This document shows, piece after piece, positions 1-59,115 of a stretch of DNA of 64,000 nt (the first letter of the stretch is position 1; each line of letters starts with the position of its first letter). The stretch is taken from contig CP047880.1 of assembly GCA_009911715.1 (NCBI GenBank), positions 124,001-188,000 on the forward strand, given 5' to 3'. Source of the DNA: Methanomassiliicoccaceae archaeon DOK (lineage in GTDB: Archaea; Thermoplasmatota; Thermoplasmata; Methanomassiliicoccales; Methanomethylophilaceae). Under the pieces are notes generated by a model. The model was not told the DNA's origin and did not search any database. It saw nothing but the letters and a program-made list of their open reading frames with translations. Both the position numbers and the translations under genes were made by a program.

Positions 1-3000
1 CGAGACTCCGACGGCCGACGACCTTTGGGTCGTGTTCGGCGGAACGGTCACCGACCAGGTCACCGGTTATCTCGTACCGGGCGACACGGTCGAAAGGCTG
101 GACATAACCCTGTTCGTTCCAGAGGATTCCGAGGACGTCTCCGAAACGCCCTACACGGTCGACGGAGACTGCGGGAACGGGAACTACGCGATAACCTTCA
201 CCCACGGGTCCCTGACCATCCGGCCGGTGGACCTGGAAACGCCGAATCCCACCATCGCGGCAGGCACAGGCCTCGTTTACAACAACACAGACTATGCGGT
301 GAGCGACTACATCACCGGGCTCCCTCAGTATACAGACGAGGGCGACCCGATCACCTGGACATTCAGCACCTCTGCGGACGGATCGTACAGTGAGGGTCTG
401 TCAGTGAGCGATGCGGACGACTACATAATCTACTACAGGGGTTCCGCCCCCAACCACAACGACTTCGTGAGTTCGGCCCAGACCACAGGCCAGTACCTTA
501 CACTGACCGTCGAGAAACGCCAGCTGATCATAACCCTGGAAGGTGTTCAAGTCGAGTACGGGGACGTACCGGTCTACGGAACCCCGGCGGTGAGCGGGTT
601 CGCCAAAGACGAGAACCAGAGCGGTCTGCACATGGTGGTCACCCCGTCCAGCGGTTACGAACAATGGGAGACAGCCGCTGGTGTAACCCTGGACATCACC
701 GTCGGTGTCACCGGTGACCTGGACAACTACACCTGGAAGTTCGGCGGTGCCGACCTCACAGTCACGGAACGCGGCATCACCGTGATTATCGATGACAAGA
801 GCTCCGGATACGGGGAGGATCTGGAAGATCTCACCTGTCATCGGGACACCGGATCCACCATCAGGGATGGAGATTCACTCAGCAGCATCGTATTCGTCGG
901 GTTCAAGAACGGCATCACTCCCACAGATGTCAGGGCGGGAGGATACCGCATCGTAGGAACCGATGTTCCGAACGACAACTACGACGTCACGTTCGTGGGT
1001 TCCGGGGACAGAAACAGGGACTACGGGATATACACCATAACTGCCGCCTCTGTGACGATCAGCTTCCTCGAGTTCACCGATGACGTCTATGACGGCGAAG
1101 AGAAGGTTTTCGGATACGAGCTCAGCGTCTCCGATGTTCCGCAGGATTCCGTCTCCGTCACCTACTACAGGCTAGTGGACGGAGCCCCGGCGGATCAGGT
1201 GGACAACGTCGTGGACGCCGGAACCTACAGGGTCACGGTCACGCTCAGCGGTAACTACACCGGTAGCGCGTCCAACGACTACACCATCTCTCCGGCGGAC
1301 TACGAGGAGTACTACGACATAAGCATCACCTTCACCGACTCACAGCCCACCTACAACCGCAAGATGCAGTATCCGAATCTCAACCTGGAGAGCATGGAAG
1401 ACTCTGCTCTGCACAGACTCGGATGGAGCTACTCGAAGGGTGCCACCAACGTCAGCGACGGTCGCGTGGAGGTGACAGTGACGTTCACGCTCCCCGACGA
1501 AATATCCGGGAACATCAGCGTCCCCGACTCCATGACGGCTTACGTCACGGTCCAGCCCGTCACGGTCGATGTTAATTGGGATAATGCCGATTTCGTCTAC
1601 GACGGGACAGAACAGACCGTCCTGGCATGGTACTACCATGTGGATGACACGGAACATACGTCTCCGGTGTACTTGGACACCTCTGATGTGCGCACCTACA
1701 TCGGAAACGAGGTTGCTGAGTTCAAGGATTGGGTCAACGGCGGGTATCTAATCACAGCCGATTTCAGGTCCGACGACAACCTGGAGAGGAACTACGCTCT
1801 CAGTCACTCCGACGACGTCAACGCAGAGAACTGTGACCGCAGCGTCTTCATTATGGCTCAGCGCCCCGTGACCGTGGTTGCGAACAGCTACACGATCACC
1901 TACGGCGATGAGCCTCCGGCCCTGTCCTGGCACTACCAGGAAGGCACCACAGATGCGGGGAAGTTCGTCCTGGACGGGGGCACCGTGGTCCAGGCCAGCG
2001 ACATGACCACGGGGATCGCCGTGACAACATCGCAGACGGTCGAGGTGGGGACTCCCGTAGGCAGTGTCTACGTCAACGCCAGTTGTTACGGGATGACAGG
2101 CCTATCCAACTTCGATGTGACCTACGAGCAGGGTACCCTGACCATCGAGAAGAGACAGATAACCATCGACATACACAACCAGTCGTCCGTGTACCATCAG
2201 GAGATTGTCGTCTCCTCCGAGAGGGGAGAGAGTGCCGACGAAGGCGCGTACCACGTGGTCTCCGGCACTCTGCCGGACATCGCGAACCATCCTGACCTGG
2301 ACCCGGCAATCGTGCTGGTGAAGGCGGAGGGAACTGACGCAGGCACATACGCCATCACTCTGGGAAGCTACAACCAGAACTACGAGGTGACCGTCCAGGA
2401 CAACGGAACGTACGAGATACGCCCCGCGCAGATCACGGGCATCTCCGTCAGTCACGATGATTTCGATTACGACGGCAGCACACACGACGGGACGGAGTTC
2501 GAGACAAGCGCCGTGACGGTTGACGGGTCCGCATACACGTTCACGTTCTCCTTCACCGGAGAAAACTATGTCGCAGGCGAGAGCCTGACGTTCTCCGATG
2601 CGGGAGACTACACTGTGTACTACCAGGTCTCCGCGCCCAACCACGGAACCGTCGACGATTCGTTCACGTTCTCCATAGGTACTGCCCAGATTCACATCTC
2701 GTACACCGAGGTTGATGACTGGATATACAGTGGAGAACCACCGAACGTCTCGGGGACCTTCGAGTTTGGAGACGCCGAGGTGAGCATTTACAGAGGGAAC
2801 TCCACATCCGCGGAGAATCTGGTCGAAGGAGGATTCACCACATCCACCGATGCGGATACGTACACCGTCCTGCTATACGTCCCGGAGAGCATCAGCTCAT
2901 GGGACCACAACACGCCGAACTACGGATACACCGAGGCCTCATACCTGGTTATCATCGACCCCCTGGAGGTGTCGGTGGAATGGGTCTATCCCTCTTTCGT

Positions 3001-6000
3001 GTACGACGGGTACAGCAAGACCAACACAATCACGATCGAGGATTACATGGAGTTCGGCACTGGTGGGGATCACGACCATTCGCCCGAGCCCGTCACCACG
3101 ACCTCCGGGAAAACGATGACCATGATTATCGCCACCGCCGGAACGTACCAAGTCTGGGTGGAACTCACCAGCGACAACTACTGCTGGGACAGCGACAACC
3201 CGGAGGAGAGGTGGTTCCCAGTCGTGTGGTTCATCTCCGAGGGCTCTAATGATTGGGTCAACGAACTAACCGAGTTCGGCGGCTGGGTCTACGACGGAGG
3301 ATACGACGAGCCGCAGGGCGTGACAGCGGAGCACGGAACGGTGTACTTCATGTACTCGGCGACTGAGGACGGGACCTACACCAGGGCCCCCTTCACCGAC
3401 GCCGGAACGTACTATATCGTGGCCGTGGTCGACGCCACCGAGAGCTACGGGGGGCTGAGGTCCGAACCCGTCGAGTACACCATCGAGAAGTGCCCCGTCG
3501 ACATCGTGGAGGCAACCGGCGACACCGAGTTCACATACGATGGCTCGGTCCACACAGTGGCCGTTTCGGAATACGATCCAAAGAAGGTCTCGGTCACCGG
3601 GACCTCGGCGACAAACGCCGGGAACTACACCGTCACGGTGTCGCTGGTCGACGGACGCAACTACGTCTGGAACGACGGCACAGGCTCGTCCGAGGACTAT
3701 ACCATCCCGTGGGCGATCAACAAGGTCATCCTTACGCTACCAACATACAGCTCTGGTCACATCGGTGATGACGGAGTCGGGTTCCTGGAGTACAACCTCT
3801 ACGAGCAGACCTATCCGTTCGTGTTCAATCCAGCCCTCGTAGAGGTGACTGGAGACACAGGCGCTGCAGCCAAGACCTACACGGCGGAGTTCAGGATCGT
3901 AGATTCCACCAACTATGCCTGGCCGGAGGACACACAGACCACGGATGGCGCATACGTCTTGGAATGGCGCATCGACCCGATGACGCTGACGGCCCCCACG
4001 CTGGACTCTGATACCACAGTTTACGACCCCGACGGCACGTACAACACCGTCACCAACTATGTGGCGGCGTACATGGGCCTGAGCACCAACTCCGTGTACG
4101 TGTCCGTGAGCATCGTCGGGGACGAAGTGACGCTCACGGCGGACAGGGTCAGCTCCGTACATGAGAGCGGACAGTACTGGATCGATGTGAGTTTCGCCTC
4201 TGACAACTTCCAATGGAATGATGGCACCCAGGAGGTCAAGCGTCTCTACTGGACCGTCACCCCCGTGCAGGCCACGCTGACTTCTGGAAACGACAGCTTC
4301 CTCTACGACGGGGAGGAGAAGACCTACAGACCGGGCGGGTTCGATGCAAATATGATGTTCATCGACGGCGACCGCAGGACCAACGCGGGGAGCTACGAGG
4401 CGAAGGTTACGCTCCGCGACACGCTCAACTATGTCTGGAGCGAGAACATGTCTGAGTACATCGGGGAAGACGGAAGCGCCTACATGCCCTGGAGCATCAC
4501 GGCTGAGACGTTCGACCTGGACAGTCTCGCTGTGAACCTCGAGTTCATATACGACGGAACGCCGCACGTCCCTGTGTTCACCGACCTGCCGTCCTGGCTC
4601 ACCGTCTCATTCGAAGGCGGTGTGACGGAAGCAGGCACCGGTGACGTCACGGTCACGTTCGCGACGGTCGGTCAGCCGGATTACACGCTGGAAACGACCG
4701 AGAAGACCTACACGGTAACCGTCGTCCAGCGCACCGTCACCATAGATGTGGCCGACGCCGAGATGACCTACGGCGGAGACGTCCCGAGCATAGGATGGTC
4801 CTACGCTGAAGGCTCCCTCGGTTTCGTCGAGTCCGACAGCGTGACCGTCGAGACGGGCACCGACTACAAGGGCGGAAACCGTGGAGAATACAATACGACC
4901 GCCACCACCACGGCGGACACCGGAAACTACAGCGTGAACATCAACCCGGGAACACTGACCGTGAACCCCATCGTGGTCTCGTACCCAGAGAACGACCAGG
5001 TCGAGTACACAGGGTCCGAAGTGGATTGCCCGTTCACTGGCCCCTTCACCGTGGTCTCCGGAGCCACAGCGACGTCCCTTGGCGACCACACCGCCACTAT
5101 CTGTCTCAACGACCCCGTGAACTACGTGTGGTGGGACGGTACCAACGGCGACAAGACGCTTACGTGGAGGATCGTCGCCGGGGACCAGCTCATGGAGGAC
5201 TACTTTGACGTGGACACGTCCGATGAGGTCTACACCGGTTCGGAGATTGAGAAGTCCGTCGTCAGTCTGAACCCCAACATCAGACAGGGCGAGGACTACA
5301 CCGTTACCTACAGCGACAACATCGACGCCGGGACGGCCACAATCACCATCACCGGAATCGGAGACTTCGAGGAAAGTGTGCTCACCTATGAGTTTACAAT
5401 CGGTCCGAGGCCGGTCTCTGTTCCGGAGCCTGTGTCCCTGGAGTATCAGGAGGGTGTGGAGCAGACCGCACCCTACTTGTCAAACGAGTACTACACCGTG
5501 TCCGGGGAGGTCTCCGGCACCGAGGTCGGGGATTACACCGTGACCTTCACGTTGAACAACACGGAATCGAGGAACTACGTCTGGTCCGACGGCACCTACG
5601 ACCCGAAGACAGTGACCTGGCGCATCGTGTCGGAGCACGTGCTCATCGACGGATTCTTCGTCATCGACACGTCCGATGAGATCTACACCGGTTCGGAGAT
5701 TGAGAAGTCCGTCGTCTGTGTTAACCCAGATCTGATTCTCGGCACCGACTACTCCGTGTCGTACAGCAACAACGTGGATGCCAGTACGACGGGGAACCCC
5801 GCGAGGATAACCATCACGGGTCTCGGAGACTACGAGGACAGCGTCCTGGAGTACACCTTCTGGATCGACAGGCTCGTACCCGTCCTGGAGTTTGTAGGGG
5901 ACGGGTTCAGGAGCTTCGAGGACGAGGGCACGTTCTCCCTGACCCCGTACATGTCTGGAATCGGCGCGGACGACATTGTCTGGACCTCCAGCGATCCGTC

Positions 6001-6334
6001 CGTGGCCGAGGTCGATCCGGAGACAGGAGTCGTGGCAATCCGTTCCGTGGGAACCGCGGAGATCACCGCGACCTTCCCTGGAGACGGGAACCGCGAGGCA
6101 GCGGAGGACAGCTACACCCTGAACGTGGACGAGGTCAGAACCGAGATCGTGGTCGTGCCTGGAGGATCTGGCGGTGCCGGAGGCGACTCCGAGGTCATCT
6201 ACGTGCCCACGGTCATAAGGCAGACCGTGGACGGTGGGATAAGCGACCTGACCTGGCTGCTGATTATCGCGTGTATCGTCGTCATTATGCTTGCCGTCAT
6301 CTGGCTGATCTGGACCAGGAGGGACGGCGAATGA
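1..6334 (+). CDS. Giant MBG-repeat surface (adhesin-like) protein, 5' end outside window
   Basis: The frame is open to the left edge, so the N-terminus is missing and the GTG at 32 is not the real start. About 2,110 residues remain. They are strings of beta-rich immunoglobulin-like modules of the MBG type seen in bacterial and archaeal surface proteins, recognisable by recurring YDG, YGD, AGTYTV-like and NYVW.DGT motifs. Before the C-terminus is a Big_2-like module (WTSSDPSVAEVD). The protein ends with one hydrophobic helix followed by WTRRDGE, a membrane anchor with a short cytoplasmic tail, so the repeats should face outside. Cysteine is scarce. Two 51-nt near-identical direct repeats lie at 5213-5263 and 5666-5716. 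The stop overlaps the next gene as ATGA. The surface role is inferred from architecture; the ligand is unknown. Confidence 0.85.
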   Translation, partial: ETPTADDLWVVFGGTVTDQVTGYLVPGDTVERLDITLFVPEDSEDVSETPYTVDGDCGNGNYAITFTHGSLTIRPVDLETPNPTIAAGTGLVYNNTDYAVSDYITGLPQYTDEGDPITWTFSTSADGSYSEGLSVSDADDYIIYYRGSAPNHNDFVSSAQTTGQYLTLTVEKRQLIITLEGVQVEYGDVPVYGTPAVSGFAKDENQSGLHMVVTPSSGYEQWETAAGVTLDITVGVTGDLDNYTWKFGGADLTVTERGITVIIDDKSSGYGEDLEDLTCHRDTGSTIRDGDSLSSIVFVGFKNGITPTDVRAGGYRIVGTDVPNDNYDVTFVGSGDRNRDYGIYTITAASVTISFLEFTDDVYDGEEKVFGYELSVSDVPQDSVSVTYYRLVDGAPADQVDNVVDAGTYRVTVTLSGNYTGSASNDYTISPADYEEYYDISITFTDSQPTYNRKMQYPNLNLESMEDSALHRLGWSYSKGATNVSDGRVEVTVTFTLPDEISGNISVPDSMTAYVTVQPVTVDVNWDNADFVYDGTEQTVLAWYYHVDDTEHTSPVYLDTSDVRTYIGNEVAEFKDWVNGGYLITADFRSDDNLERNYALSHSDDVNAENCDRSVFIMAQRPVTVVANSYTITYGDEPPALSWHYQEGTTDAGKFVLDGGTVVQASDMTTGIAVTTSQTVEVGTPVGSVYVNASCYGMTGLSNFDVTYEQGTLTIEKRQITIDIHNQSSVYHQEIVVSSERGESADEGAYHVVSGTLPDIANHPDLDPAIVLVKAEGTDAGTYAITLGSYNQNYEVTVQDNGTYEIRPAQITGISVSHDDFDYDGSTHDGTEFETSAVTVDGSAYTFTFSFTGENYVAGESLTFSDAGDYTVYYQVSAPNHGTVDDSFTFSIGTAQIHISYTEVDDWIYSGEPPNVSGTFEFGDAEVSIYRGNSTSAENLVEGGFTTSTDADTYTVLLYVPESISSWDHNTPNYGYTEASYLVIIDPLEVSVEWVYPSFVYDGYSKTNTITIEDYMEFGTGGDHDHSPEPVTTTSGKTMTMIIATAGTYQVWVELTSDNYCWDSDNPEERWFPVVWFISEGSNDWVNELTEFGGWVYDGGYDEPQGVTAEHGTVYFMYSATEDGTYTRAPFTDAGTYYIVAVVDATESYGGLRSEPVEYTIEKCPVDIVEATGDTEFTYDGSVHTVAVSEYDPKKVSVTGTSATNAGNYTVTVSLVDGRNYVWNDGTGSSEDYTIPWAINKVILTLPTYSSGHIGDDGVGFLEYNLYEQTYPFVFNPALVEVTGDTGAAAKTYTAEFRIVDSTNYAWPEDTQTTDGAYVLEWRIDPMTLTAPTLDSDTTVYDPDGTYNTVTNYVAAYMGLSTNSVYVSVSIVGDEVTLTADRVSSVHESGQYWIDVSFASDNFQWNDGTQEVKRLYWTVTPVQATLTSGNDSFLYDGEEKTYRPGGFDANMMFIDGDRRTNAGSYEAKVTLRDTLNYVWSENMSEYIGEDGSAYMPWSITAETFDLDSLAVNLEFIYDGTPHVPVFTDLPSWLTVSFEGGVTEAGTGDVTVTFATVGQPDYTLETTEKTYTVTVVQRTVTIDVADAEMTYGGDVPSIGWSYAEGSLGFVESDSVTVETGTDYKGGNRGEYNTTATTTADTGNYSVNINPGTLTVNPIVVSYPENDQVEYTGSEVDCPFTGPFTVVSGATATSLGDHTATICLNDPVNYVWWDGTNGDKTLTWRIVAGDQLMEDYFDVDTSDEVYTGSEIEKSVVSLNPNIRQGEDYTVTYSDNIDAGTATITITGIGDFEESVLTYEFTIGPRPVSVPEPVSLEYQEGVEQTAPYLSNEYYTVSGEVSGTEVGDYTVTFTLNNTESRNYVWSDGTYDPKTVTWRIVSEHVLIDGFFVIDTSDEIYTGSEIEKSVVCVNPDLILGTDYSVSYSNNVDASTTGNPARITITGLGDYEDSVLEYTFWIDRLVPVLEFVGDGFRSFEDEGTFSLTPYMSGIGADDIVWTSSDPSVAEVDPETGVVAIRSVGTAEITATFPGDGNREAAEDSYTLNVDEVRTEIVVVPGGSGGAGGDSEVIYVPTVIRQTVDGGISDLTWLLIIACIVVIMLAVIWLIWTRRDGE
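5213..5716 (+). repeat. 51-nt direct repeat pair inside the surface protein gene
   Basis: Positions 5213-5263 and 5666-5716 are identical except for one base (GAGGTC against GAGATC). Both encode DTSDE(V/I)YTGSEIEKSVV. The 453-nt spacing is one repeat module, so recombination between the copies would delete or duplicate a module in frame. Confidence 0.85.
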
Positions 6335-53894: not shown

Positions 53895-55129
53895 TCACAC
53901 GTCCAGCTCGAACTCCTCGCCGGTCTGGGGGAGGATGACGTTGTAGTCGCTGAGGTCGTCGAGGAACGCCTCCCTGTTCTCGGAGTGCATGATGATGACG
54001 TTGTCGGGGTCGCATCCCTTGACGAAGTCGACGATCTGGCTGTGGTCGGCGTGGGCGGAGAAGTCGTACTTCTGGAGCTCGCACTCGATCTTGACGATCT
54101 CGCCGTCGATGCTGACGCAGCCCTGCTCCATGAGCATCCTGCCGTTGGTGTCCTCCGCCTGGTATCCGACCAGGAGGATGGCGCTCTTGGGGTCGTTCCT
54201 GAGCTGGTTGAGGTACCTGAGGACCGGTCCTCCGTCGAGCATTCCGCCGGTGGTGACGATGATCTGTCCCTTGATCGCGGCGTCTCTGTTGGCGGGCCTC
54301 CTGACCTCGTGGAATCTCTTCTTGGCGTTCCTAAGCTGCCTGGCGTCCCTGAGGTACTCAGGGTAGTCCAGGAACAGGCGGGTCACGGCCCTTCCCATTC
54401 CATCGACCCACATCTCGTAGCCGAGGTCCTTCAGCAGGAGCATGATCTCCTGGGTCCTTCCGACTGCGAAGCAGGGGATCAGGACGGTCCCGCCACGGTC
54501 GATGACCTCGTCGATCTTCGCGATGAAGTCCTCCTCGGTCTGCTTTCTCGGAGGGTGGTTGCGTCCACCGTAGGTTCCCTCGATGAAGAGGTTGGTGCAG
54601 TCCCTGGGCTTGGCTCCGCCGACGAGCCTCTGGGTCTCGGTGTGGATGTCTCCGGAGTAGATGGTGGTGCTGTCGCGGCTGAACTCGAACATCGCGGCAC
54701 CGGGGATGTGTCCGGCGTCGAGCATGCTGACGTCCACGTGGTTGATCGTTATGTCGTCCCCGTAGGTCATGGGGACCACGCTCTGCATCGTCTTCTCGAT
54801 GTCGTCCATCGAGTAGGGCTGGACGTAGTCCTCCGCCTTGGCGATCTTGAGCGTGTCTTTCATCATGAGCTCGGAGATCTCAGCGGTGAGCGGGGTGGTG
54901 AACAGGTCGCACCTGTCCCTTCCGACGACCTGGGGCACCATGCCGCAGTGGTCGAGGTGGGAGTGGGTTAGGAACATGTAGTCGATCTTCGGTGCAGGGA
55001 TGGGGAACTCCGGGGGTTTAGTGGGGCTAAGTCCGTACTCCACCAGGACGGTCATGCGTCCCCCTCCATCGTCATTCCCATGCGGCCGACCATGTCAGCG
55101 CCGCCGAGGAACTTGAATCTCATTTTCAT
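53895..55129 (-). CDS. Beta-CASP metallo-beta-lactamase ribonuclease, frame break near N-terminus
   Basis: The long frame (ATG 55055 down) encodes 386 residues. It has FLTHSHLDHCGMVPQVVGRD (HxHxDH metal site), IYSGDIHTET, the beta-CASP region (GTYGGRNHPPRKQTEEDFIA, PCFAVGRTQEIMLLLKDLGY) and YDFSAHADHSQIVDFVKGCD. These are RNA-processing nucleases of the archaeal CPSF/aRNase J group. The expected N-terminal strand (MKMRFKFLGGADMVGRMGMT) lies just upstream in a different frame (ATG 55129, after AGGAGATGA, to TGA 55052). One extra G in the GGGGG run at 55060-55064 would join them. Confidence 0.85.
55060..55064 (-). other. G-run at the beta-CASP frame break
   Basis: On the minus strand the first frame reads ATG GAG GGG GAC GCA TGA, and the second starts ATG ACC inside the last codons. 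A -1 slip or one added G on this five-G run yields the continuous junction MTMEGGRMTVLVEYGL. Confidence 0.6.
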
Positions 55130-55473: not shown

Positions 55474-57972
55474 ATGGGAGCGCTCGATAAGAGGATATTC
55501 AGCGGCGTGGCTATAGTGTCCGCGTTGCTCTTCGTCGTGGCGGCGGTGATGCTCCTCGCCAACGGTGGCGAGGTGGTCGACGACGCCAACGACATCGCAC
55601 TATACATCGTGACCGTGGCCGGGATCATGGCCGTCGTTTATGCCGTGGCCCTGATGATGGACCGTTCCAGCTTCGTCAGGACCATGAGCGGTGTGCTCAC
55701 GGCGATAGCAGGCATAATGTTCCTGGCCGTTCCGTTCGTCGGCGAGAGCACAGGCATGCTTCTCGCGGCGGCGTCCATCGTCGCCGCCATAGCGATCGTC
55801 GCCGACATGCTCGCCCTCTGGGTGTCGCGCATATACGGTGCCATGTACGTGGCCGCCGTCCTCGCCGCGGTCGATCTCGCGATGGGCGTACTCTACTTCG
55901 CCGGCAGCCCCCAGATCACTTATCACGCAATCACGTTCATAGCGTTCGGAGTCTGGCTCGCCCTCTCCGCATACGTCACAGGCTTCGTGAAGGTCGAGTC
56001 CGCGGTCAAGACCAGGGAAGTCAAGGAGGACAAGCAGTCCAACAAGGCCAGCAAACCCCAGGCTAAGAACACGAAGGCCACGAAGAAGGCCAAGAAGCCC
56101 GAGAAGAGGCCCGAGGAGAAGCCGAAGACGGCGGAAGTCCCCAAGGACGAGGCCAAGGAGGCTCCGAAGGAGGAGCCCAAGGCCGCGGAACCCAAGAGGG
56201 AGGAGGCCCCCAAGGAGGAGCCCAAGTCCGAGCCGGCAGCCGAGGAGAAACCCAAACAGAGGCCCGCACCCAGGCCGGTAACTCTTCCGAACAGGCAGAA
56301 GCCCGAGGAGAAGCCGAAGACGGCGGAAGTCCCCAAGGACGAGGCCAAGGAGGCTCCGAAGGAGGAGCCCAAGGCCGCGGAACCCAAGAGGGAGGAGGCC
56401 CCCAAGGAGGAGCCGAAGTCCGAGCCCGTCGGAGAGAAGAAGGCCGCCGAGAGCGCTGACGGCCAGAAGCCCCCTGCGAAGTCCATGAACGACTTCATGA
56501 AGAAGCTCATGTCCTCGGAGAACGCCAACAGGGTCAAACACGACGCTCCGAGAGAGGTTCCCAAGGAGGAGCCCAAGGCCGCGGAACCCAAGAGGGAGGA
56601 GGCCCCCAAGGAGGAGCCGAAGTCCGAGCCCGTCATCGAGCAGACCGCTGTCCGCGAGGTCTCGGAGCCTGTCGTCGAGGAGCAGCCCGTCATCGTCGAG
56701 GAGCAGCTCGAGGATGTCGCTGTCGAGGAGCCCATCGTTGAAACAATCGAGGAGCCGGAGGGGGCCCCCATCGAGGATACCCCAGAGCCAGAGGAACACG
56801 AGTCTGAGGAGTCTGCAGTGGAGGCCGTCGTAGCCGAGCCGATCCAGGACGTTGTCATGGACGAGGCCTCCGAGGAGCCCGAAGCCGTCCCCGAGGATTC
56901 CGTCCCGGAGCCCGTCGTCATCGAGCAGGAGCCCGAGGAAATCACAACGGAGGAGCCTGCCGAGTCCCAGCCCGACTGGTCCATGGTGAGCCATGACGCA
57001 TCACAGGTGGACGAGCCTGTCGAGGACATGGCTGACGACGTATCCGACGAACAGGAGGCAGTCGAGGAGACCGTCCCCGAGGAACCGGTCGTCCAGGAGG
57101 AGTCCGAGCCCGTCATCGACGAGCCAGAGGCCGCGTATCCGGACGATGCCGAAGAGGCAGCAGAGGATGCACCGATCCAGGAGGCCGTCGTAGCCGAGGC
57201 CGTCATTGAGCAGGAGATTCAGCCCGAGGCCGAGGTCATTGCCGAGGAGCCAATCACCGAAGCCATTGACGAGTCCGAGGAAGCTCCAGTCGAGGAGCAG
57301 GCAGGCGAACCGGTCGATGCTTCCACAGCAGACGAGGCCTCCGAGGAGCCCGAAGCCGTCCCCGAGGAGCCTGCCGAGTCCCAGCCCGACTGGTCCATGG
57401 TGAGCCATGACGCATCGCAGGTGGACGAGCCCGCCGAGGAGCCAATCACCGAAGCCATCGACGAGCCCGAGGAAGCTCCAGTCGAGGAGCCTGTCATGCA
57501 GGAGTCCGAGATGCCTTCCGAGAATGTCGCAGAGGCGCCCGAGCAGATCGTCGAGCCCGAGGCCCCGCAGCAGAGTTCCGAGCAGATCCAGTCATCCGGA
57601 GAGATGGACGTCGAGTCCGGGGCTGTCACGGAATCAGGAGAGGAGGTCCTCGGCGAGGACCTGTACACGGACTACTCGCCCGAGGCGGTCGTCCGCAGAG
57701 CGGCATGGAACAAGGGCCTGAGATGCAGGCGCGGATACGGACCTTACAACATCCCGGTCGCCTTCGTGAAGGGCAAGGTCGCCGTATTCGTCGACGACGG
57801 GGACGCCGACACATCCATCGACTCCAAGCTGAGGGAAGAGGGATGGACGGTCCTCAGGTACGATTCGTCCACGATCACCGACGGAAAGGCCCAGGGGGAG
57901 GAGATCGCCGCGGCGGTCAAGTCCAACCTGCGCAGCGCCAAGGCCGCTTCCAAGAAGAAGTCCAGGAAGTGA
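55474..57972 (+). CDS. Membrane protein with acidic repeat linker and Vsr/DUF559-like domain
   Basis: The 832-residue protein has three parts. Residues ~8-180 contain about six membrane helices. Residues ~185-725 are a low-complexity linker rich in Glu, Pro, Lys and Ala. Its first part repeats PKAAEPKREEAPKEEPKSEP; its second part is very acidic and includes two copies of AESQPDWSMVSHDASQVDEP. Residues ~730-820 (SPEAVVRRAAWNKGLRCRRG, KGKVAVFVDDGDAD, LREEGWTVLRYD) resemble the Vsr/DUF559 endonuclease fold, but the usual PDIVF aspartate is replaced (IPVAFV), so it may be catalytically dead. The function is unknown; the C-terminal domain is probably cytoplasmic. Confidence 0.75.
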   Translation: MGALDKRIFSGVAIVSALLFVVAAVMLLANGGEVVDDANDIALYIVTVAGIMAVVYAVALMMDRSSFVRTMSGVLTAIAGIMFLAVPFVGESTGMLLAAASIVAAIAIVADMLALWVSRIYGAMYVAAVLAAVDLAMGVLYFAGSPQITYHAITFIAFGVWLALSAYVTGFVKVESAVKTREVKEDKQSNKASKPQAKNTKATKKAKKPEKRPEEKPKTAEVPKDEAKEAPKEEPKAAEPKREEAPKEEPKSEPAAEEKPKQRPAPRPVTLPNRQKPEEKPKTAEVPKDEAKEAPKEEPKAAEPKREEAPKEEPKSEPVGEKKAAESADGQKPPAKSMNDFMKKLMSSENANRVKHDAPREVPKEEPKAAEPKREEAPKEEPKSEPVIEQTAVREVSEPVVEEQPVIVEEQLEDVAVEEPIVETIEEPEGAPIEDTPEPEEHESEESAVEAVVAEPIQDVVMDEASEEPEAVPEDSVPEPVVIEQEPEEITTEEPAESQPDWSMVSHDASQVDEPVEDMADDVSDEQEAVEETVPEEPVVQEESEPVIDEPEAAYPDDAEEAAEDAPIQEAVVAEAVIEQEIQPEAEVIAEEPITEAIDESEEAPVEEQAGEPVDASTADEASEEPEAVPEEPAESQPDWSMVSHDASQVDEPAEEPITEAIDEPEEAPVEEPVMQESEMPSENVAEAPEQIVEPEAPQQSSEQIQSSGEMDVESGAVTESGEEVLGEDLYTDYSPEAVVRRAAWNKGLRCRRGYGPYNIPVAFVKGKVAVFVDDGDADTSIDSKLREEGWTVLRYDSSTITDGKAQGEEIAAAVKSNLRSAKAASKKKSRK
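56109..56414 (+). repeat. Exact 114-bp direct repeat in the linker
   Basis: 56109-56222 and 56301-56414 are identical (offset 192 nt). A third, shorter copy begins near 56562. The identity at the DNA level points to recent duplication or continuing conversion. Confidence 0.85.
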
Positions 57973-58081: not shown

Positions 58082-58381
58082 ATGTTTTGTCCATCATGCG
58101 GATCGATGATGTTCCCGAAGGAGGGGAAGTACGTCTGCAACTCCTGCGGTGCCACCAAGGACATCGGGGAGAAGGCCGAAGTCATCGTGACGGATTCAAA
58201 GGACAGGATGATGAGGGTCATCGAGGATGACGTCGCCACCCTTCCCAAGACGCGTATCCTTTGTCCGGAGTGCGGACACACAGAGGCATTCTTCGTCATC
58301 AGGCAGACGCGTGCCGCGGATGAGCCTGAGACCAGGATCTACCGTTGCTGCAAGTGCAACCACTCCTGGAGGGAGTACTGA
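58082..58381 (+). CDS. tfs: Transcription factor S
   Basis: The 99-residue protein has an N-terminal zinc ribbon (FCPSCGSMMFPKEGKYVCNSC) and a C-terminal ribbon (CPECGHTEAFFVIRQTRAAD, YRCCKCNHSWREY). The acidic DE pair in RAADEPETRIY is the TFIIS-type catalytic hairpin that triggers RNA cleavage by stalled RNA polymerase. The length is typical. The stop overlaps the PCNA start by one base (TGATG). Confidence 0.95.
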   Translation: MFCPSCGSMMFPKEGKYVCNSCGATKDIGEKAEVIVTDSKDRMMRVIEDDVATLPKTRILCPECGHTEAFFVIRQTRAADEPETRIYRCCKCNHSWREY

Positions 58382-59115
58382 TGTTCAGTGCGGACCTCAA
58401 GTCCGACACCCTGAAGGGTCTGGTGAACATCATATCCACGCTCATCGACGAAGTCAAGTTCACAATCACGCCAGAGGGGATGACCCTCAAGGCTGTCGAC
58501 GCCGCCCATGTCGCGATGATCGAGATGGAGGTAGAGAAGTGCGCGTTCGACAAGTACGAGGCAGAGGACTGCGAGATAGGCCTCGACCTCGACAAGGTCA
58601 AGGACGTTCTGAAGCTCGCCGCATCCGGCGACGTCATCGGAATGGAGCAGGACGACACCCACGGCAGGCTCGTGTTCAAGGTCGGCAACATCACCAGGCG
58701 CATGAACCTGGTCGACACGACAACAATGAGCGACCCCAAGGTCCCCCAGCTGTCCCTCACCGCCAAGATCAGCCTGCCGGTGGACGAGCTCCAGAAGGGC
58801 ATCCGTGCGGCGGACAAGATCTCGGACCACATCACGCTCAAGGCCGGCCCCGGGTACTTCGACATGTTCTGCGAGGGGGACACCGACTCAGTGAGCCTCC
58901 ATCTGGACGGGGCGTCCGTCGAGGTGGACTCGGACTCCGAGGTCTGCAGCATGTTCCCGCTCGACTACTTCTCCAACATCATCAAGGCCATCCCCGCCGG
59001 AACGACGGTCATGGTAGAGCTCGACAACGACTACCCCGTCAAGCTCGTGTTCTCGCTGGCCGACGGAAACGCCAGGGTCAACTACCTCCTGGCACCCAGG
59101 ATTGAGAGCGAGTGA
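58381..59115 (+). CDS. pcn: DNA polymerase sliding clamp PCNA
   Basis: The 244-residue PCNA has two similar domains: FSADLKSDTLKGLVNIISTL, VKFTITPEGMTLKAVDAAHV, LDLDKVKDVLKLAASGDVIG, the linker and MFPLDYFSNIIKAIPAGTTV. It forms a trimeric ring that tethers polymerase and repair enzymes to DNA. Translational coupling to TFS links transcript cleavage and replication genes. It overlaps the next gene region by 4 bp if that starts at GTG 59112. Confidence 0.96.
   Translation: MFSADLKSDTLKGLVNIISTLIDEVKFTITPEGMTLKAVDAAHVAMIEMEVEKCAFDKYEAEDCEIGLDLDKVKDVLKLAASGDVIGMEQDDTHGRLVFKVGNITRRMNLVDTTTMSDPKVPQLSLTAKISLPVDELQKGIRAADKISDHITLKAGPGYFDMFCEGDTDSVSLHLDGASVEVDSDSEVCSMFPLDYFSNIIKAIPAGTTVMVELDNDYPVKLVFSLADGNARVNYLLAPRIESE

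Follow-up and report, generated by a model that had tools for sequence, protein, structure and literature searches.

Gene locus and genomic context

Why should a nuclease-like domain be carried at the end of a long arm on a predicted membrane protein? The question is raised by a gene for an 832-aa protein in the window, the whole 64,000-nucleotide stretch analyzed, which lies within one 1.89-Mb contig (Table 1). The gene is followed directly by TFS and then PCNA, as the first-pass annotation had stated. Wherever a contig reaches far enough, the membrane-type gene is found between a divergent beta-CASP gene and a TFS-PCNA-transketolase block; the exception is a short two-helix membrane form (L144), which was not placed at this locus. 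In four genomes that have neither carrier of the domain described below (G001, G006, G017, and G026), the beta-CASP gene adjoins TFS.

Table 1. Features of the locus and of the encoded 832-aa protein (coordinates are those of the window).
Feature	Coordinates	Strand	Basis or remark
Divergent beta-CASP metallo-hydrolase gene, left edge of the conserved locus	53895..55055	-	Pfam, synteny
Gene of the tethered membrane protein with the pseudo-Vsr domain, 832 aa	55474..57972	+	ATG start; orthologues at the same place in the family
Predicted six-helix membrane anchor, residues 1-180, fast evolving	55474..56013	+	Hydropathy; AlphaFold2, pLDDT 90.9
First part of the tether, Lys-rich, charge-balanced, residues 181-330	56014..56463	+	Composition
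Second part of the tether, strongly acidic, residues 331-722	56464..57639	+	Net charge over residues 331-720
Short conserved tether motif, NDFMKKLMSSENANRV region, residues 337-356	56482..56541	+	Counts against shuffled tethers
Pseudo-Vsr domain, residues 727-822, predicted EDxHD/PD-(D/E)XK-type fold, almost certainly catalytically dead	57652..57939	+	Predicted structure, Foldseek, alignment, hhalign
Basic C-terminal tail KAASKKKSRK	57940..57969	+	Lys-rich tail kept in single-copy relatives
TFS (TFIIS-like Zn ribbon), right edge of the conserved locus	58082..58381	+	Pfam, synteny
PCNA	58381..59115	+	Pfam, NCBIfam; ORF 58345-59115, internal ATG likely the true start

A different protein of ~260-370 aa with two to four hydrophobic segments lies between beta-CASP and TFS in other families of the order and in some genera of the window's family (L263, L268, L269, and L270-L276), mostly with a conserved DWEFI/DFEYI-like C-terminus; some genomes with the membrane carrier have a gap of similar size ahead of TFS. 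At the left end of the window, positions 32-6334 hold an ORF of 2100 aa.

Membrane anchor and tether

The first-pass annotation had described six membrane helices followed by an acidic tether of about 540 residues, and both parts were recovered by direct computation. Residues 1-180 contain six hydrophobic segments (starting at residues 4, 38, 67, 88, 115, and 152), matching six helices in the AlphaFold2 model (mean pLDDT 90.9), and residues 181-722 form a 542-aa low-complexity arm that is 80% E/P/K/A/V/D/S with a net charge of -112. The charge is unevenly spread, with +4 over residues 181-330 and -116 over residues 331-720. The protein probably resides at the membrane. The fold search returned no convincing relative of the six-helix part, the best matches being a designed 6-helix barrel and then TMEM45A at TM 0.48. 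Among 33 membrane parts, four matched the DUF998 profile (PF06197; best E 7.6e-8), the window copy not being one of them, and no Pfam match to an HdrE-like cytochrome b-type family was obtained. Proteins of the ZipA/FtsK type also combine a membrane anchor, a long P/E- or P/Q-rich linker, and a C-terminal binding domain, the arrangement that the 832-aa protein would share; their terminal domain is a different one, and the likeness is one of architecture.

The three parts of the protein evolve at different rates. Identity of the membrane part falls to 15-24% across genera, against 43-62% for the C-terminal domain, and near relatives are 79-92% identical in the domain and 46-57% in the tether. 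The domain also shows few differences at codon positions 1 and 2. Together with the presence of the domain in 84 genomes, the low rate of change at these codon positions and the contrast between domain and tether identity indicate that the feature is not a product of chance. The tether retains one short motif (NDFMKKLMSSENANRV in the window, LPKLKVMSSREAAAARD in other genera). Of 41 membrane-type tethers, 28 contain it, each a single time, and all 26 HdrD tethers lack it; shuffled membrane-type tethers gave a mean of 0.06 with the motif and a maximum of 2, a comparison that serves as a guide and not as a blind test, since the pattern was written after the sequences had been inspected. The conservation of the motif in side-by-side alignment is the stronger point.

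Elsewhere in the family the tether takes other forms. In two proteins of genus g22 (L195:6389-9856 and L194:6303-9284), a coiled-coil-like repeat of ~800 residues, rich in A/E/K/Q, replaces it, and in three others (L134:1668-2825, L153:3-986, and L197:8166-10130) it contains repeated units of ~45 residues (MSDEEIMAVIREEDEDLYNKIAEATGL), which are possibly small helical domains. An NCBIfam match to NF041620 (22.6 bits against a cut-off of 200) lay mostly over the low-complexity tether and was taken as compositional.

Fold and descent of the C-terminal domain

The kinship with Vsr and DUF559 proteins that had been read from the domain's motifs was borne out. SPEAVVRRAAWNKGLRCRR at the start and the strands AVFVD and GWTVLRYD are all present, and an hhalign comparison of 61 domain rows with 22 Vsr proteins of the same order gave a probability of 98.6 (E 1.2e-15, 34% identity over 83 columns). 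The domain thus descends from the Vsr mismatch endonuclease. Its AlphaFold2 model, built on a 61-copy alignment (mean pLDDT 84.5), runs helix, strands, helix, strand, and long helix, and the predicted fold is of the Vsr type. Foldseek returned three confident PDB matches, each with probability 1.00, namely the catalytic domain of the homing endonuclease I-Bth0305I (TMq 0.65), a T. gondii mitoribosomal chain, and the putative endonuclease NGO0050; their E-values of 1.5e-3 to 1.3e-2 make the fold evidence moderate by that measure. Named matches in a viral structure library were mostly Vsr, DUF559, and homing endonucleases. Compared with Vsr (PF03852) and the EDxHD enzyme I-Bth0305I, the domain has the same fold and order of elements, the SPE/IE..LR..W..GLR.R helix and strand, the KVAVF strand, and the L...GWTVLRF strand.

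No Pfam or NCBIfam family exceeds its cut-off for the window protein. The domain scores 13.7 bits against Pfam Vsr (cut-off 27) and 12.9 bits against NCBIfam TIGR00632 (cut-off 97.85). DUF559 (PF04480) matches 27 of the 61 domain rows weakly (best E 0.0021), with no match listed for the window copy, and the RAP domain (PF08373) is absent from the Pfam families listed for these rows. A profile search against PDB sequences yielded no match.

A DUF559 search of the window's own genome found other nucleases and not this domain. Outside the window, a region of ~45 kb (G000:C1:1544875-1590312; L001, L002, and L293) holds two Vsr matches, one of them full-length with PDI and FWH, and a 1247-aa ORF bearing DUF559; this cluster is perhaps a defence island.

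Loss of the catalytic residues

The first-pass annotation had pointed out that the usual PDIVF aspartate is missing and had proposed that the domain may be pseudo-enzymatic; both statements hold. P761 falls in the column where the PDI motif of Vsr has its catalytic Asp (D51 in the E. coli enzyme), and this column is Pro in 97% of the membrane copies and 93% of the HdrD copies. Membrane and HdrD copies alike also carry a deletion of ~29 residues in the hhalign alignment at Vsr FWHG...KIERN, which includes the catalytic His. In the tandem copies described below, the Asp column is mostly Thr or Asn and sometimes Asp, and the FWH segment is also missing. Weak matches to the domain profile outside the main set proved mostly to be genuine Vsr enzymes, which match in two halves and thereby reveal the place of the deletion.

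The Asp-to-Pro exchange and the FWH-to-ERN deletion imply that the domain is almost certainly not a nuclease. Conserved acidic residues among homologues, which the first-pass annotation had suggested looking for, were found in part: E737 (the Vsr Glu position) and D779 (the last Asp) are kept in the window copy and in many relatives, and neither is invariant. Their retention would suit an active nuclease with a rearranged site, a reading that we regard as extremely improbable, given that both main groups have Pro for the essential Asp and lack the His segment, that the Glu and Asp positions vary, and that a membrane-held nuclease on a redox enzyme is unlikely.

Every copy in the membrane, HdrD, tandem, and true Vsr groups has R741, W745, V769, and W791; R750 and R752 are nearly invariant, and N746, K747, C751, Y755-G756, and T802-D803-G804 are conserved specifically in the family. 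The first half of the domain (residues 741-768) is basic, with a mean charge of +6.9 in membrane copies, +7.0 in HdrD copies, +8.8 in tandem copies, and +6.2 in true Vsr. The second half is acidic, and over the whole domain the charges nearly cancel (mean net +0.1 to +0.6). Single-copy proteins have a Lys-rich tail beyond the domain.

Distribution and carriers of the domain

Of the 147 genomes of the order, 84 have a strong match to the domain, and every one of these belongs to the window's family. Two further genomes of the order gave weak Vsr-type matches, and a class-wide sample of 400 genomes gave one weak match only outside the family. There are two main carriers, the membrane protein (almost always with six helices when full-length) and HdrD, where in sister genera the domain ends a shorter A/P/E/K arm with a median of 78 residues. 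In the window's genus the membrane form alone was observed, and HdrD lacks the domain, having a short tail after VTAP (e.g., VTAPKKEEPASE). G032, G034, and G035 have the HdrD form alone, at single-sequence level, and both carriers occur in G033 and 14 assemblies. Genus g23 carries four to seven tandem domains on HdrD; its HdrD-like subunits (L186-L192, e.g., L186:4010-7279) represent the most extreme form of the module. HdrD fusion and tandem arrays are, like the anchor and the tether, read directly from the computed architectures. In a tree of the domain, copies group strongly by carrier: the HdrD and membrane labels need 2 and 3 changes, where shuffled labels need 25 and 32 on average. L136 was counted as HdrD from its tree position alone, as its bases are masked. 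The tree has few columns and open deep forks, and no order of events is therefore inferred.

Some genomes have neither carrier although HdrD is present, and the domain is cleanly absent from several members of the window's genus. This clean absence within one genus would fit an idle relic kept by drift, which is nevertheless very improbable for a domain that is highly conserved over the whole archaeal family, shows few differences at codon positions 1 and 2, and keeps a fixed place in the genome.

Possible functions of the domain

Two unrelated carriers bear, at the end of a flexible arm, the same conserved, basic-faced, catalytically dead domain. The best reading is a binding module common to both, and a non-catalytic binding role is very probable. 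In the explanation favored here, the degenerate domain would have lost cleavage along with its catalytic Asp and FWH segment while keeping the core fold and the basic half, and would now act as a binding module at the end of a long, disordered arm. The fast-evolving six-helix bundle would anchor this arm in the membrane in the window's genus, and the same module would stand at the end of the HdrD arm in sister genera. On either carrier it would most likely keep a common cytoplasmic partner close by, the most likely partner being DNA or RNA, as for the Vsr-like RAP domain. For this explanation as a whole, a Vsr-derived non-catalytic module tethering a shared partner that is most likely nucleic acid, we consider the chances to be about even. 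The binding of DNA, or the tethering of a partner to the membrane, as first proposed for the window protein, is plausible.

The closest known parallel, in which this fold is used but does not cleave, is the RAP domain. FASTKD4, which carries it (PF08373), is an RNA-binding protein with a Vsr-like cavity and an inactive site, and its target RNA was unaffected when the putative catalytic Asp was mutated (PMC11879112, PMC8190603). Like the present domain, it is a Vsr-like, C-terminal, non-cleaving module; unlike FASTKD4, the archaeal proteins have no listed PF08373 match and no FAST partner domains, and their carriers are a membrane protein and HdrD. This parallel favors nucleic acid as the ligand, as do the Lys tail and the preservation of the basic half; we hold the proposition to be evenly balanced. 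Several points weigh against it. The basic half may be an inheritance from Vsr, the domain is near neutral overall, and the deletion falls where Vsr carries FWH. A nucleic-acid anchor is also without obvious purpose on HdrD, an electron-transfer enzyme. Furthermore, RecC, whose inactivated nuclease-like domain has taken a non-catalytic role, though in another nuclease lineage and another setting, shows that dead nuclease folds can bind unpredictably (PMC1185551).

The fusion to HdrD favors a role in positioning heterodisulfide reductase. The main rival to nucleic-acid binding is accordingly protein docking in energy metabolism, in which the pseudo-Vsr domain would bind either HdrD or a protein at the membrane, such as the headless Fpo complex, so that HdrE-less HdrD stays near the membrane through either the HdrD fusion or the membrane-anchored version. 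The order has no HdrE, and its HdrD is presumed to make direct contact with a headless Fpo-like complex (PMC4153887, PMC7374477, PMC10804542). The division of carriers between sister genera and the window's genus, where HdrD ends in the short tail, and the co-occurrence of both carriers in 14 assemblies and G033 are consistent with docking. If it were correct, HdrD would gain a membrane link as it does from HdrE, the membrane anchor of HdrDE, although here with six helices and a tether, no heme subunit, and no domain on HdrD in the window's genus. However, some genera have one carrier only and some genomes neither despite having HdrD, the HdrD gene neighbors show no functional link, with no obvious fpo genes beside HdrD in L073/L074 as judged by eye, and docking does not need the strong retention of the basic half. 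We regard it as possible but tentative.

The charge dipole and the multivalency of the four- to seven-copy arrays in one genus would also fit homotypic assembly, in which the domain binds itself through its basic and acidic halves and clusters HdrD, the membrane protein, or both. This seems improbable: a hetero-bridge is superfluous in genera that have just one carrier, and true Vsr enzymes are already dipolar (+6.2/-5.0), so the dipole is not a new trait.

Implications

The Vsr fold and repurposed dead nuclease domains are already known; compared with Vsr and I-Bth0305I, what is unusual is a domain with Pro for the catalytic Asp and FWH deleted, scoring below the Pfam and NCBIfam cut-offs and tethered to a membrane protein or HdrD, at times in tandem arrays. 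No published description of the pseudo-Vsr domain or of the HdrD fusion was found in the literature searched. With the same module occurring on HdrD and in tandem arrays, what calls for explanation is no longer a single odd protein but a module shared between carriers. It offers an instance, restricted to one lineage, of a Vsr-type nuclease that has become a binding module, much like the RAP domain of eukaryotes. A more far-reaching view, which we consider unlikely, is that a DNA-repair nuclease was domesticated in one methanogen family as a docking module organizing the terminal enzyme of methanogenesis, so that HdrD arms with up to seven tandem copies and the membrane arm would fix the cellular position of heterodisulfide reduction (at the membrane, nucleoid, or polysome), HdrE being lost. 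The module is tied to HdrD, which in this gut and rumen order of methanogens is presumed to dock at the membrane without HdrE, in an unexplained way, and a domain of ~100 residues with named residues provides a concrete handle on how HdrD is positioned.
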